DNA from: a virus
Length of the DNA: 37,521 nucleotides
Direction: 5' to 3' (one strand)
Virus record (IMG/VR): IMGVR_UViG_3300032316_000258
Coordinates: 1-37,521 of that record
In this document: in pieces, positions 1,620 through 19,135 of the stretch
Layout: every line of letters begins with the position of its first letter
How positions within the stretch are numbered: the stretch's first letter is position 1
The notes under the pieces: generated by a model
The model's input: only the letters and a program-made list of their open reading frames with translations
Told to the model about the DNA's origin: nothing
Database searches by the model: none
Position numbers and translations under genes: made by a program

Positions 1620-1816
1620 ACCCCACCCAAATCACAGCACCGCGTGTGCCTATTGTTGACCCTGCAACGGGTTTGATCTCGCGTGAGTGGTTTAGGTTTA
1701 TCAATTCAATGTACGAACAATTAGGCAGCGGCACGGGTGCTGCGTCCGGTACGTTCACAACAACCGATTCTAAAACCGTGACGGTCGTCAACGGCATCAT
1801 TACAGGGATAGTCTAA
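1616..1816 (+). CDS. Small conserved tail-module protein
   Basis: The 66-residue product contains a proline/aspartate motif (PRVPIVDPATGLISREWFRF, residues 8-27) followed by INSMYEQLG. This pattern recurs in small phage proteins, and at fibre N-termini, lying between the tail hub and the spike or fibre gene. The C-terminal 25 residues are Thr/Val/Gly rich and probably beta-structured. It overlaps gp10 by 4 nt (ATGA) and its TAA overlaps the next ATG, so it is coupled at both ends. A linker between the tail hub and the spike is an inference from position; no enzymatic motif is visible. In P22 the neighbouring slot carries gp26, the tail needle, but this protein is far too short to be a classical needle. 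Confidence 0.7.
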   Translation: MNPTQITAPRVPIVDPATGLISREWFRFINSMYEQLGSGTGAASGTFTTTDSKTVTVVNGIITGIV

Positions 1817-4062: not shown

Positions 4063-5151
4063 ATGGCTGGAGTTATTGTTGGATCGGTAATTAGTGCGGG
4101 CGCGGGTCTATTAGGTAGCGCAAACAGCGCGCGCGCCTCTCGCGACGCTGCTAACACACAGGCCGAAGCCGCAAGAGAGTCAGGGCGGCTGTCGTATGAA
4201 ATTTCGCAGCAACAGCTTGCCGCGCAAAAAGAAGCGCTTGACCGGCAAATTGCAGCCTCGGGCGCAACCGTTGACAAGCAGTTGCTTGCCCAACGCGACG
4301 CGCTTGATCAGCAAATGGCTTTTCAAGCAAAAATATACGAACAACAACGGGCAGACTTTGCACCATACCGCGAATCAGGCGTTGCCAACCTTAACCAACT
4401 CAATACGCTATTGGGTATTGGCGGCAACACGGGCGCGGCAGACTACGGTCGTTTTAGAACGGCTGACTTTACGCCCGCTGATTTCGCAGCTAACAAAGAC
4501 CCTGGGTATGCGTTTCGTATTAGTGAAGGTTTAAAAGCTATTGATCGTCAAGCTGCTGCGCGTGGGGGGTTAATTTCAGGTAACGCATTAAAAGCTGCAT
4601 CAGGTTATTCTAGTGATTTGGCATCCCAAGAATATAACGCCGCGTTTAATCGTTTTCAAACTATTCGTGGCAATACCCTTCAGCCTTTTCAGACGGGTGC
4701 AGCAGCCGGTCAAAGTGCTGCGGCTATGCAAGGTCAGTCAACCGCCAACTATGGCAGCGCAGGCGGTCAAGCTATTGGACAGTTTGGCCAAGGCGCATCA
4801 GGCATCTACGGCAACGCCGGTAACGCTTTGAACACGGCGTACGGCAATTACGGTCAAGGCACAACAGGTGTATTAGGTGCCTACGGTACAAACGCCACCA
4901 ACGCGTTGACCGGCGGTGCTAACGCTCAAGCGTCAGGTATTGTTGGCGGGGCAAACGCGTTTAACCAAGGGTTGAGCGGCATCAGCAATCTTGCTAACAC
5001 TTACTACGTTAATAGTTTGCTACAGGGCCGGAATAGTAACGACCCTACTTCGCAAGCGGGTGCCACAAAAACTTACAACACCATGATGAACAGCGGTGGT
5101 TTTGGAACCGGTAGCGGTTTTGGCAATCAAGACTACGGTCAGTATTTCTAA
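4063..5151 (+). CDS. Internal virion / DNA-ejection protein (DNA transfer protein-like)
   Basis: This 362-residue protein starts with a small hydrophobic glycine-rich segment (GVIVGSVISAGAGLLGSANS, residues 3-22). A long Ala/Gln/Glu helix follows (25-100), ending in QRADFAPYRESGVANLNQL, a pattern I recognise from phage proteins annotated as DNA transfer or ejection proteins. Residues 150-200 contain DPGYAFRISEGLKAIDRQAAARGG, also typical of the group. The C-terminal half is a low-complexity Gly/Ala/Asn/Tyr region with repeated YGNYGQ-like units. Such proteins are packaged in the head and ejected to form a channel across the cell envelope. Three such genes in a row (4063-9516) match the three-protein ejection set of P22 (gp7, gp20, gp16), although the sequences are not obviously related. 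Confidence 0.7.
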   Translation: MAGVIVGSVISAGAGLLGSANSARASRDAANTQAEAARESGRLSYEISQQQLAAQKEALDRQIAASGATVDKQLLAQRDALDQQMAFQAKIYEQQRADFAPYRESGVANLNQLNTLLGIGGNTGAADYGRFRTADFTPADFAANKDPGYAFRISEGLKAIDRQAAARGGLISGNALKAASGYSSDLASQEYNAAFNRFQTIRGNTLQPFQTGAAAGQSAAAMQGQSTANYGSAGGQAIGQFGQGASGIYGNAGNALNTAYGNYGQGTTGVLGAYGTNATNALTGGANAQASGIVGGANAFNQGLSGISNLANTYYVNSLLQGRNSNDPTSQAGATKTYNTMMNSGGFGTGSGFGNQDYGQYF

Positions 5152-9770: not shown

Positions 9771-10135
9771 TGGATCCAATTACACTCCTAGCCGCGCTTG
9801 GGCCCCTTGCCGTAGACTTAGGGAAATCCCTGATCGGGCGGTTTATTCAAACCGACGTCTACAAACCGACCAACGTCGCCGAGTACACGCAGATGCGTAA
9901 CACCGACCTTGAGATGTTCAAGGCAATGAACGCAGCGGGCGGCGCAGGTACAACTTACCCGTGGGTCGAGGCGATTGTCAGATTGATGCGACCAGGCGTT
10001 GCTACCGTGGTGCTCGGCACATGGGCGTACATGATGGTGACAGGGCAAGACTCGCCAGCGGTCAACAACTTCGCCTCGGCAGTCGGATTCTATTTGTTCG
10101 GTGACCGCACACTTTTCTACGCGCAGAAAAAATAA
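9770..10135 (+). CDS. Holin (GTA-type three-TM family candidate)
   Basis: The 121-residue product has three candidate membrane segments: near residues 4-20 (ITLLAALGPLAVDLGKSLIG), 73-90 (GVATVVLGTWAYMMV) and 99-113 (NNFASAVGFYLFGD). The WVEAIVRLMRPG motif (about 63-74) and the FYLFGDRTLFYAQKK C-terminus recall the three-TM holin family named for gene-transfer-agent release. Role: timed permeabilisation of the inner membrane so that the endolysin encoded next can reach peptidoglycan. It overlaps both neighbours by one base (TAATG) within a compact lysis cassette. Confidence 0.65.
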   Translation: MDPITLLAALGPLAVDLGKSLIGRFIQTDVYKPTNVAEYTQMRNTDLEMFKAMNAAGGAGTTYPWVEAIVRLMRPGVATVVLGTWAYMMVTGQDSPAVNNFASAVGFYLFGDRTLFYAQKK

Positions 10136-10560
10136 TGTTTAAATTCTCAGAACGCTCGCTCAACAACCTCAAAGGCGTACACCCTAAACTGGTTGCCGTT
10201 GTCCATCGTGCGCTTGAGTTAAGCCCGATTGACTTTACGGTGCTAGAGGGTGTGCGATCGCAAGCGCGTCAAGATGAATTGTGGGCTCAGGGGCGAACCA
10301 AGCCTGGCCCCGTCGTGACATGGGTGCAAACTAGCGGCACTCACGGCATCCAAGCCGACGGTTACGGTCACGCCGTAGACCTCGCACCATACCCGATTGA
10401 TTGGAACGATTACGCCCGTTTTGATAGCTTGGCTAACATCATGTTTGCCGCTGCCAAAGAACTTGGCGTGACGCTGCGCTGGGGCGGCAATTGGGATATG
10501 GATGCCACGATTCATGAGCGTGGCGAGTCCGATAGCCCGCACTATGAGCTATTTGAGTAG
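10135..10560 (+). CDS. Endolysin, peptidase M15 (VanY / L-alanyl-D-glutamate peptidase type)
   Basis: The 141-residue protein is a single M15 domain without signal peptide or cell-wall-binding domain, as usual for phages of Gram-negative hosts. Visible motifs are LEGVRSQARQDELWAQGRT (37-55), TKPGPVVTW, a zinc-site region SGTHGIQADGYGHAVDLAPY (67-86), the LRWGGNWD motif (about 114-121) and SPHYEL (134-139). His79 or His70, Asp82 and His136 are the likely zinc ligands. It cuts peptide cross-links in murein at the end of infection and depends on the upstream holin for export. It is the last gene of the plus-strand late block; the minus-strand operon converges on it 49 bp downstream. Confidence 0.85.
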   Translation: MFKFSERSLNNLKGVHPKLVAVVHRALELSPIDFTVLEGVRSQARQDELWAQGRTKPGPVVTWVQTSGTHGIQADGYGHAVDLAPYPIDWNDYARFDSLANIMFAAAKELGVTLRWGGNWDMDATIHERGESDSPHYELFE

Positions 10561-15835: not shown

Positions 15836-16462
15836 ATGTTTAACTTAGCAAAACTCCCTGAAGTAAAGTCACTCAGTACAGCCCTGCGTACCATTCAAGC
15901 CGAAGTTGGCCCAACTGGCGTTGTGATCATCAAGATGGACAAGACTGGTCATTGGGTATTTGGGGCTGACCAAACCGAAGTCGAAGCTGACTCGACATGG
16001 GCAGTCAACCCGTTCTCATTTGTCCACGGCTACATTGCGTGGGGTGATGGTGACGTTCTAGCTGAAAAAATGGTGTCTGTGTCTGAGCCATTGCCCGAAA
16101 TGGATGACGCCCCTGCGGGCGCTAAACGTGGTTGGGAAGTGCAGGTCGGTATGTCGATCAAGTGTTTGACCGGCGAAGACAAAGGTTTGGAAGCGCGTTA
16201 CACCACCACCTCGGCCGGTGGCAAACGTGGCGTACAAACTTTGGCAGTTGCAATTGCCGAACAAGTTGATAAAGATCAAACCAAACCTGTGCCCGTTGTG
16301 TTGCTCAAAAAAGAACACTATCAGCACAAGTCGTACGGTCGCATCTTTACACCTCTGTTCGACATTCAGTCGTGGGTCGGCATGGACGGTGAAGAGCCAG
16401 TTGTTGAGGCAGAAGAAGTTGCCGAGGTAGCACCCGCCCGTCGTCGTAGGAGCGCAACATGA
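15836..16462 (+). CDS. Conserved phage protein of unknown function next to DUF2800
   Basis: The 208-residue protein is beta-rich in its central part: FVHGYIAWGDGDVLAEKM near 60-80, a W-E-V-Q-V-G-M-S-I-K-C-L strand, and HYQHKSYGRIFTPLFDIQSW near 165-184. It ends in an acidic stretch (EEPVVEAEEVAEVAP) followed by RRRR. Acidic tails are typical of ssDNA-binding proteins, and DUF2800 genes are often followed by one, so a DNA-binding accessory role is plausible. The fold is not recognisable as an OB domain by eye. ATG 15836 has AAAGG upstream at good spacing. Confidence 0.7.
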   Translation: MFNLAKLPEVKSLSTALRTIQAEVGPTGVVIIKMDKTGHWVFGADQTEVEADSTWAVNPFSFVHGYIAWGDGDVLAEKMVSVSEPLPEMDDAPAGAKRGWEVQVGMSIKCLTGEDKGLEARYTTTSAGGKRGVQTLAVAIAEQVDKDQTKPVPVVLLKKEHYQHKSYGRIFTPLFDIQSWVGMDGEEPVVEAEEVAEVAPARRRRSAT

Positions 16463-16602
16463 TTGACTTGACAATGTCTGTTGATGAAATCAACAAAATC
16501 TTGGGCGTACTTGGTCGTCAACCGTTTCACGAAGTCGAAGCGTTGATTGCTAACATCCGCCGCCAAGCATTGCCGCAGTTACCACCAGCAGTAGCCGAGT
16601 AA
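16459..16602 (+). CDS. Small protein of 47 residues
   Basis: ATG 16459 overlaps the previous stop (ATGA) and TAA lies at 16600-16602. The product (begins MIDLTMSVDEINKILGVLGR, ends LPQLPPAVAE) is helical with a proline tail. The V-D-E-I-N-K-I-L-G-x-L-x-x-x-P-F-x-E-V pattern is seen in other phage small proteins of the same kind. Function unknown. Confidence 0.65.
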   Translation: MIDLTMSVDEINKILGVLGRQPFHEVEALIANIRRQALPQLPPAVAE

Positions 16603-16608
16603 GGTTTA

Positions 16609-16700
16609 GGGGGCGGTTAGGCAAGCAATTGAGGATGCCGTAAGTGCGTGTTTTTCTTGCCTTCCAACGCACGGGCAGTAACGGCCAAATCAACGCCCCC
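16609..16700 (+). ncRNA. Structured RNA candidate (pseudoknot) in the DNA polymerase leader
   Basis: The 109-nt gap before the polymerase folds on paper into a closed, knotted structure. The outer stem pairs GGGGGCG (609-615) with CGCCCCC (694-700), continued by TT (617-618) with AA (692-693) past a bulged G. GCCGT (637-641) pairs with ACGGC (681-685), and GTGCGT (644-649) with ACGCAC (667-672). The 17-nt loop of that hairpin contains CTTGCCT (656-662), which pairs with upstream AGGCAAG (619-625) to form a pseudoknot (offsets are from 16000). The 3' outer strand ends 11 nt before the ATG, where a Shine-Dalgarno would be expected and none is present. A cis-regulatory element for the polymerase is the simplest reading. 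Confidence 0.5.
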
Positions 16701-16711
16701 ACCTCACACCT

Positions 16712-18622
16712 ATGACAATCTTATACCTAGATTTTGAAACGCGCAGCCATTGCGACTTGAAGAAGCATGGCGTCTACAACTACGCGCAAGACGCAACCAC
16801 AGACGTCTTGTGTATGTCCTACGCCTTCGACGATGAAGAGGTTGTAACGTGGTTACCCACGCAGCCCTTCCCCAAGCGTGTACGCGATCATAAGGGCCTC
16901 ATCTACGCCCACAACGCAGCCTTTGAGCGCCTGATTTTTTGGTATGTCCTACAGGTTAACTTTAAGTTAGAGCAGTTCTATTGCACCGCAACACAAGCGC
17001 GAGCAAACTGTGCGCCTGGTTCTCTTGAAGACGTAGGCCGCTTTGCCGGTGCGAGTATGAAGAAAGATTACCGTGGCGCGCAGTTGATTCGCGCGCTGTG
17101 TGTACCGCCGTTTAAAGATGATCCCGCGCTGATGCGTGAAATGGTGCAATACTGTGAGCAAGACGTGCGCGCCATGCGCGCCGTAAGTCAAAGCCTACGC
17201 CCCCTATCAGACGAAGAGTTGGAGGATTACCATGTCAACGAAAAAATTAACGACAGAGGTGTTTTGGTGGACGTGCCTCTTGCCAGCGCAGCCATCTCTT
17301 ACGCGGCCATCGAACTCGCGGACATACAGTCCATTGTCAGAACCGTCACCAATGGCGCGATCACGTCAGTCCGCTCGCCGAAGATGCGCGAGTGGGTTAA
17401 AGAAAGACTAAGTACAGAACACCTTAAACTAATGGAGATAGAAGATGGAAAGTATTCGATTGACAAGCGCGTACGGGCAAACTTACTCGCGGTCGAAGAC
17501 TTACCGCCCGACGTTGCCGAGGTTATCCAGTGCGCCGACGATTTATGGGCGTCGAGCGTTGCGAAGTTCAGCCGCCTTAAAGATTTGGCAGATGTCGAGG
17601 ATAGCCGTGTCAGAGGAGCATTTGTTTTTGCTGGAGGCAGCGCTACAGGGCGCGCGTCGTCATACGGCGCTCAAGTCCATAATTTCACTCGTCGATGCGC
17701 AAACCAACCGGAAAGCGTTAGAGAGAGCATGGTTCTCGGACGTTCCATCGTTCCCCAGTTTGGTAAAAGAGTAACCGACGTCTTAAAAGGGATGCTGCGC
17801 CCCGCAATCGTACCGGCTAAGGGTAAGTCCTTGGTGGTCGCCGATTGGAGTCAGATTGAAGCGCGTATGACCCCGTGGCTATCGGGCCGAGGCGATGACG
17901 TGTTAGACGTGTTCAGGTCGGGCCGCGACATTTATGTGCGTGAGGCGGCGGCGATGTACAAGATACCCGAAGACCAAGTGACCCCCGACCAAAGACAGAT
18001 CGGTAAGGTTGCAATCCTCGCCTGTGGCTTCGGCGGGGGTATTGGCGCGTTTAGCGCGATGGGTCGCGCCTACGGGTTGACTATGACTGAGTCAGACGCG
18101 CAGCGCACCGTTGACGCATGGCGACGTGCGAACCAATGGGCTGTGCGTTACTGGCAAGAGTTGGAAACTGGCTACATGATCGCCATGCGTAATAAGGGGC
18201 GCGAAATCGTCGCGGGTAGGGTAACCTACCTGTTTGATGGGCAACACTTATGGTACGCTTTACCTTCCGGTCGCATCCTCTGTTACCCCTACGCCAAACT
18301 TGAAGAAGATGGAATCAGCTACGCCAAAGCCGCTTGGAAGCCAGCCGTTGACGCCCGTGAATGGCCACGCGCCCGACTATGGCGTGGCTTGGCCTGTGAA
18401 AATGTCACCCAAGCCGCCGCGAACGACGTATTACGTTACGCTCTCAGAGCCGTTGAACCTCTCGGAGTTGTACTCCACGTTCACGACGAAATTGTTATTG
18501 AAACCGATCAGCCCGAAACCGTCACCGAACAACTAAGAAAAGCAATGTGTACGCCCCCGCCGTGGGCGCAAGGTTTACCGTTAAACGCCGAGATCAGCAC
18601 AATGGCGCGTTACGGTAAATAA
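16712..18622 (+). CDS. DNA polymerase, family A (PolA-like), with 3'-5' exonuclease
   Basis: The 636-residue protein has an N-terminal 3'-5' exonuclease: LDFETRS with Asp7 and Glu9, AHNAAFE near 66-72, YCEQD 147-151. The polymerase domain has motif A VVADWSQIEAR (375-385, Asp378), motif B RQIGKVAILACGFG (428-441) and motif C LHVHDEIVIE (588-597, Asp592). Counting from Lys432 (Pol I Lys758), the residue equivalent to E. coli 762 is Leu436, not Phe or Tyr. The start is fixed by family resemblance, as the exonuclease motif begins at residue 6. No Shine-Dalgarno precedes the ATG; a structured RNA fills the leader. It is the replicative polymerase of this phage. Confidence 0.95.
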   Translation: MTILYLDFETRSHCDLKKHGVYNYAQDATTDVLCMSYAFDDEEVVTWLPTQPFPKRVRDHKGLIYAHNAAFERLIFWYVLQVNFKLEQFYCTATQARANCAPGSLEDVGRFAGASMKKDYRGAQLIRALCVPPFKDDPALMREMVQYCEQDVRAMRAVSQSLRPLSDEELEDYHVNEKINDRGVLVDVPLASAAISYAAIELADIQSIVRTVTNGAITSVRSPKMREWVKERLSTEHLKLMEIEDGKYSIDKRVRANLLAVEDLPPDVAEVIQCADDLWASSVAKFSRLKDLADVEDSRVRGAFVFAGGSATGRASSYGAQVHNFTRRCANQPESVRESMVLGRSIVPQFGKRVTDVLKGMLRPAIVPAKGKSLVVADWSQIEARMTPWLSGRGDDVLDVFRSGRDIYVREAAAMYKIPEDQVTPDQRQIGKVAILACGFGGGIGAFSAMGRAYGLTMTESDAQRTVDAWRRANQWAVRYWQELETGYMIAMRNKGREIVAGRVTYLFDGQHLWYALPSGRILCYPYAKLEEDGISYAKAAWKPAVDAREWPRARLWRGLACENVTQAAANDVLRYALRAVEPLGVVLHVHDEIVIETDQPETVTEQLRKAMCTPPPWAQGLPLNAEISTMARYGK

Positions 18623-18670: not shown

Positions 18671-19135
18671 ATGACAAAGTCAATTATACGCATAAAAGGT
18701 ATGACGAGAACACCTTTTTATGTATGTTGGGTGAATTTACGCCATAGATGTAGTAATCCAAACCACACTTTATATAAATGGTACGGCGCTAGGGGCATTT
18801 CTTTTTGCCCCGAATGGGCGTCTTTTGCCGGTTTTTATTCAGATATGTTTGATAGCTACGTTGTCGGGCTAGTATTAGACCGGATTGATAACGACAAGGG
18901 ATATTCAAAAGACAATTGTCGTTGGGTTACCCAAAAAATAAATTGCAGAAACACAAGAAATAATAAATTTATTCAAACCCCTGTTGGCGCCATTACGTTG
19001 GCCGAAGCCTCGGAAATATATGGTGTAAGCCCTGATTTGTTAAGTTATCGGCTTTCGCATGGTTACTCAGATATGCAAGCAATAACGACGCCGGTACGAA
19101 CCGGCGCATACAAACGCAAAGGAGTTACAGCATGA
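18671..19135 (+). CDS. HNH-like (putative homing) endonuclease
   Basis: The 154-residue protein has the layout of freestanding phage HNH-type proteins. The CWVNLRHRCSNPNHTLYKWY segment is followed by GARGISFCPEWASFAGFYSDM, VLDRIDNDKGYSKDNCRWVT and a basic C-R-N-T-R-N-N-K tail. The C-terminal 45 residues (TLAEASEIYGVSPDLLSYRL) look like a small helix-turn-helix DNA-binding repeat. In classical HNH motifs the first position is D-H; here it is D-R (LDRIDN), so cleavage activity is uncertain. It sits between polymerase and primase, has its own AAGGAG, and is more A/T-rich than its neighbours, consistent with later insertion. Confidence 0.7.
   Translation: MTKSIIRIKGMTRTPFYVCWVNLRHRCSNPNHTLYKWYGARGISFCPEWASFAGFYSDMFDSYVVGLVLDRIDNDKGYSKDNCRWVTQKINCRNTRNNKFIQTPVGAITLAEASEIYGVSPDLLSYRLSHGYSDMQAITTPVRTGAYKRKGVTA

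Follow-up and report, generated by a model that had tools for sequence, protein, structure and literature searches.

The leader of the DNA polymerase gene of this phage contains a real and strongly conserved knotted RNA, some 95 bases long, which recurs in many freshwater phages as a single copy per genome, whatever the neighbouring genes, and is a diverged variant of the architecture of Atu_At1, with a likeness at the level of homology. The window analysed here, i.e. the whole stretch of 37,521 nucleotides of the viral record IMGVR_UViG_3300032316_000258, carries one copy, directly before the gene of a family A DNA polymerase (polA). We consider that this copy is probably one of a class of ~95-nt pseudoknotted RNAs, widespread among phages and akin to the Rhizobiales small RNA Atu_At1, which act as independent structured small RNAs.

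The sequence-only reading had placed four stems (P1, P2, P4 and P5) in the gap before polA; direct reading confirms each of them at its place and recognises an extra helix, P3, that had escaped the earlier reader. The gap extends over 109 nt from the stop codon (16600–16602) of an upstream ORF, for which no family was found, to the polA ATG at 16712, and a Shine-Dalgarno sequence is absent from 16701–16711 (ACCTCACACCT), both as previously described. The features of the region, all on the plus strand, are the following.

16459..16602, +, upstream ORF of 47 aa, its stop 6 nt 5' of P1
16609..16700, +, whole pseudoknotted RNA domain, matched by model R1 at 16607–16702 (88.6 bits, E about 1e-24), a match that is not independent, the window being among the 67 sequences used to build R1
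16609..16615, +, P1 closing stem, 5' strand GGGGGCG; two-sided changes at 7 of 7 pairs
16616..16618, +, unpaired GTT (GTTA with the first P2 base), invariant in 67 sequences
16619..16625, +, P2 pseudoknot stem, 5' strand AGGCAAG; 100% paired, two-sided changes at 4 of 7 pairs, G-U present
16629..16632, +, P3, 5' strand TTGA; TTGA/TCAA, TCAA/TTGA and TCGA/TCGA types all found
16633..16636, +, unpaired GGAT at the P3–P4 junction, invariant in 67 sequences
16637..16641, +, P4, 5' strand GCCGT; pairs 1–3 100% paired in the alignment, the remaining two read from the window sequence
16644..16649, +, P5, 5' strand GTGCGT; two-sided changes at 6 of 6 pairs
16651..16655, +, U-run in the P5 loop, 5' of the P2 3' strand; UUUU invariant, in Rhizobiales members too
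16656..16662, +, P2, 3' strand CTTGCCT, inside the P5 loop (alignment pairing)
16667..16672, +, P5, 3' strand ACGCAC (alignment pairing)
16681..16685, +, P4, 3' strand ACGGC (alignment pairing)
16686..16689, +, unpaired CAAA at the P4–P3 junction; C-(A/G)-AAT conserved
16690..16693, +, P3, 3' strand TCAA (alignment pairing)
16694..16700, +, P1, 3' strand CGCCCCC, partner of GGGGGCG (alignment pairing)
16712..18622, +, family A DNA polymerase gene, polA (Pfam DNA_pol_A, 3.5e-20)

Directly 3' of polA lies a free-standing HNH endonuclease gene (window 18671–19135); relatives have varied ORFs inserted on the other side of polA, between the RNA and polA.

From all loci 105 distinct members were parsed, 67 of which, all phage sequences, form the alignment used for covariation. 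RNAalifold recovers P1, P3, P4 and P5 from it unaided. For the pseudoknotted structure 98.6% of the 1805 pair cells are paired, compared with 77.6% in shuffles and 33–51% in slid controls, and two-sided changes occupy 387 cells where 94 are expected. They concern 21 of the 27 pairs, some of them in the interleaved stem of 7 bp that makes the pseudoknot; the covariation score was reached by none of 500 shuffles, and six slid versions came nowhere near it. The compensatory changes sought in homologous leaders are found, and both the H-type pseudoknot and the outer stem that closes it are borne out, with five covarying helices. On the other hand, a folding energy no better than that of shuffled sequence had been put forward as an argument against the element, and this is indeed what the nested minimum free energy gives (z -1.00 and -1.19). 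Certainly this energy fails to support the element, yet it is uninformative since the energy test is blind to the pseudoknot, so that covariation decides.

P2 exists as AGGCAAG/CTTGCCT, AAGCCAG/CTGGCTT, AAACCAG/CTGGTTT and AAGTCAG/CTGGCTT, and the G-U pairs among these types favour RNA. One could nevertheless imagine that the element works at the DNA level and folds as single-stranded DNA, at a replication origin or at a site of recombination or insertion, since genomes have a single copy and replication genes are often close to it. We hold this for the least probable reading: the sequences retain G-U pairs (U-G at pair 9–93 in 28 of 67, at pair 34–82 in 18 of 67), and in Agrobacterium the relative is expressed as RNA (PMC3738593).

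A search with the polymerase gave 80 viral loci; about 19 have the motif near polA, while at about 61 the leader of the related polA gene is without it, so that the expected conserved association with polA does not appear. A DNA pattern derived from the conserved core retrieved at least 120 stretches in viral contigs, its coding false positives (GGCGTTAAGTCAGCCATCGAGGATGAAGC type) being dropped by demanding the U-run and the tail. Each of 24 positive phage records contains one strong copy, and the R1 search gave no copy in five records with a related polA. In the window a second match (10082–10173, minus strand, 23.1 bits) was taken as chance, far below true members. At two of the about 19 polA loci with the motif, L010 and L011 (2135–2215), it is shortened; L011 has lost both P2 strands and kept the other helices. 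By sequence similarity, the leader or a consensus-like member gave nothing convincing against phage and plasmid records; R1 matched, in 300 Burkholderiales genomes, one MAG only, on a contig that is possibly phage, and a pattern scan of genome contigs gave 46 stretches with two clear members. Structured RNA candidates of viruses have been catalogued in silico on a large scale, and the motif may figure in such catalogues without a name.

The genes that surround the RNA are diverse. Downstream proteins (84 members) comprise family A DNA polymerases (16) and another DNA polymerase family (4), small (11) and large (5) terminases, 5'-3' exonucleases (9), methyltransferases and others; Cas4-type nuclease and PAPS reductase are further types. 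Upstream we find a family annotated as nucleotidyltransferase (17), and also ssDNA-binding proteins, HNH nucleases and terminases. An ORF separates an intact motif from polA in L002, L004, L005, L009, L013 and L016; in L128 and L136 the motif has an endolysin gene on one side and a phrog_6637 gene on the other and is antisense to the two, and in L136 TATAAT directly precedes P1; in L164 the ORF after the motif (1893 aa) is convergent. Besides, cores at different loci are 92–97% alike and their P1 stems only 36–64% alike: near-identical cores carry unrelated P1 stems, P1 belonging to the locus and the core to the element.

These observations bear on the proposal that the RNA is a switch or an autoregulatory site of the polymerase. 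What stands of it is the structured pseudoknot RNA; the switch is not supported, the element being placed once per genome and before many unrelated genes, and autoregulation of polA fits neither the motifs that remain intact with an ORF inserted before polA nor the antisense copies of L128 and L136. The varied neighbours and the single copy make an independent small RNA likelier than a polymerase switch, and the place before polA in the window is probably incidental. The leader pseudoknot of T4 gene 32 and the translational operator of T4 gene 43 (DNA polymerase), each of which is dedicated to a single gene and the protein it encodes, are similar in that a structured RNA lies by the start codon in the leader of a phage replication gene; they differ in that the RNA described here precedes many unrelated genes and is antisense to others. 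In the same way, the H-type pseudoknot riboswitches preQ1-II and SAM-II share with the element a compact pseudoknot and a U-rich loop, but their models do not match it and the downstream pathway is inconsistent.

The tight placement between co-directional genes, with both neighbours on the strand of the motif in 77 of 105 members, nevertheless speaks against an independent RNA and resembles that of a cis-element. The RNA might thus be a riboswitch or a protein operator, P1 blocking expression as a terminator stem or over the ribosome landing site. An ORF starts at most 40 nt 3' of the motif in 56 of 105 members, a T-run of at least five directly follows P1 in 27 of 105 (background 1.3%), downstream replication genes are common, and Atu_At1 of Agrobacterium is itself just upstream of ligD. 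In the polA loci, moreover, the ATG is 6–12 nt 3' of P1. At the opposite, the downstream genes are unrelated and the single copy is strict, the copies of L128 and L136 are antisense to both neighbours, copies stay intact despite ORFs inserted before polA, and many of the Rhizobiales copies are preceded by stress-type promoters of their own. Promoter-like sites also occur 3' of the RNA and 5' of the next gene in L161, L197 and L094, a weak group as a class, those of L161 and L197 counting against cis action. Altogether a general cis-regulatory function seems unlikely to us, and a cis role for particular downstream genes is still conceivable.

The polA loci, in which the upstream stop is 3–7 nt 5' of P1 and the ATG, 6–12 nt 3' of it, has no Shine-Dalgarno sequence, could also suggest that P1 joins the upstream stop to the downstream start and so scaffolds translational coupling, with reinitiation on genes devoid of Shine-Dalgarno such as polA. 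In this direction, related polA genes lacking the element rely on a stop/start overlap, e.g. TGATG, and in others that slot is occupied by a different GGGG...CCCC leader. Such a scaffold would however leave unexplained the elaborate conserved core and the pseudoknot, and also the copies that are non-operonic, antisense or from Rhizobiales, which renders it quite improbable.

Other RNA elements accompany the motif. One kind of leader before polA, GGGG-AAAGCGGATGCCGAAAGGTGCAGCGAGTA-CCCC, is found in L075, L078, L080, L081, L162 and L175 (about 1620–1660, minus strand), possibly with a loop-E-like GAA/AGUA, and has no match in Rfam; two further kinds of GGGG...CCCC-closed polA leaders, with unrelated interiors, are present in L029, L069 and L076. 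A second recurring element is a hairpin, CGCATG-RRGATTG-(25–70 nt)-CARTCYYC-AGCCGTGTTGG, with about 20 genuine instances (L139, minus strand, 4722–4990; L115, L094, L161, L117 and others). It is often directly 5' of the pseudoknot motif, sometimes twice in tandem, its pairing is kept with R/Y changes, and its closing strand GTGTTGG is also the P1 5' strand of the motif. In L175 the GGGG-AAAGCGGATGCCGAAAGGTGCAGCGAGTA-CCCC element, the pseudoknot RNA and the hairpin stand in a row before polA. Finally, in L161, a 38-kb phage, the pseudoknot RNA is followed after about 175 nt by a Betaproteobacteria-1 RNA (RF02932, 91.3 bits; 4146–4263, minus strand), which hints at betaproteobacterial hosts and at an RNA-rich region.

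Scanned against Rfam, the window reaches the gathering threshold of no family, so that the conserved RNAs evoked earlier near DUF2800 genes are not recovered. Atu_At1 (RF02496) aligns over its full length (consensus 1–108) to the window at 18.4 bits and to relatives at 20.9, 26.5 and 27.1 bits (E 0.019 for the last). The gathering score of 60 bits in cmscan is reached neither by the window nor by the relatives (18–27 bits), and membership of RF02496 by the Rfam threshold was accordingly rejected. The converse search is a stronger test than these alignments: a model built only from Rhizobiales members of RF02496, R2, was run on 772 kb of phage DNA, and its ten best matches all fall exactly on the motif, the window first. 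R1 matched only one of 31 Rhizobiales loci, and R2, with stricter filters, gave one match only in 385 Alphaproteobacteria genomes; RF02496 is present in 36 of 297 Rhizobiales genomes.

Counted separately for covariation, phages and Rhizobiales have in common helices P1, P3, P4 and P5 and the pseudoknot P2. Both display the same order: P1, the 7-bp P2, P3, a GAUG-type internal loop, P4, a purine link, and P5 with its U-run loop. GGATG is common to the phage motif and to Atu_At1 of Agrobacterium, and the counterpart of GTT(A) in most Rhizobiales members is a similar G-U-C-A-A. They differ by a GCC...GGC mini-hairpin in the 3' part of the Rhizobiales RNA, and by the location of phage copies between phage genes. 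The covarying 7-bp P2 of Atu_At1 (members L258–L287) is missing from the Rfam structure line as the alignments display it.

The Atu_At1 family appears to have EcfG-type promoters: GGAAC occurs 30–40 nt 5' of P1 in 22 of 31 Rhizobiales members, 17 of which or of the remainder of the 31 have a complete EcfG-like site, compared with 0.24% in control windows. No such promoter was seen at phage copies in the flanks read by eye, and the promoter scan around them gave only a weak excess, with clear upstream promoters of their own in few members. In Agrobacterium C58 the RNA is on plasmid At; it corresponds to pAT_55271R, a 118-nt RNA mapped by RACE and seen by Northern blot (PMC3738593), whose start is the 5' end of the motif. 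No function of Atu_At1 was found in the literature. A self-cleaving ribozyme, or another RNA-processing element, might be evoked by the small compact pseudoknotted fold with its invariant unpaired bases in varied genomic places. This is very improbable, as no Rfam ribozyme family matched even at permissive thresholds, and the Rhizobiales 5' end sits where the EcfG-like promoter would start transcription, so that cleavage is not needed to explain it.

An RNA acting by itself fits the single copy, the arbitrary neighbours, the two orientations, the movable core and the stand-alone relative with its stress-type promoters. The five helices and the unpaired core (GTTA, GGATG, U-run, C-R-AAT) form a compact fold whose ends are joined by P1. 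The unpaired bases that are conserved belong to internal loops and to the pseudoknot and resemble a folded binding site more than an antisense seed; binding of a putative cellular protein is therefore the first guess, a small ligand being less likely. The window copy is predicted to be made within the transcript of the replication operon, then released, P1 sealing both ends of the freed RNA, which would act in trans. The T-runs 3' of P1 in 27 of 105 members would fit such a release. More tentatively, with chances that we put somewhat below even, it could represent phage small RNAs of a widespread and so far undescribed class, whose homologue is a stress-induced alphaproteobacterial small RNA: an accessory and movable core, present once per genome, would act in trans on a host factor, sometimes in an array with further structured RNAs. 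GsrN of Caulobacter, an EcfG-controlled small RNA (PMC5869019), is comparable in that it comes from an alphaproteobacterium and depends on the general stress sigma factor, as many of the Rhizobiales relatives appear to do; its description differs by action through a C-rich 5' loop and by predicted homologues typically near the stress-response locus, and mentions no pseudoknot.

A guess made on a single genome thus becomes a well-supported RNA class, with covariation across the full pseudoknotted fold, and is linked to an experimentally detected Rhizobiales RNA whose pseudoknot is omitted from the current Rfam structure line. The unexplained stress RNA to which the phage element is distantly related comes from soil bacteria, and the function of both the phage RNA and Atu_At1 is now directly testable.
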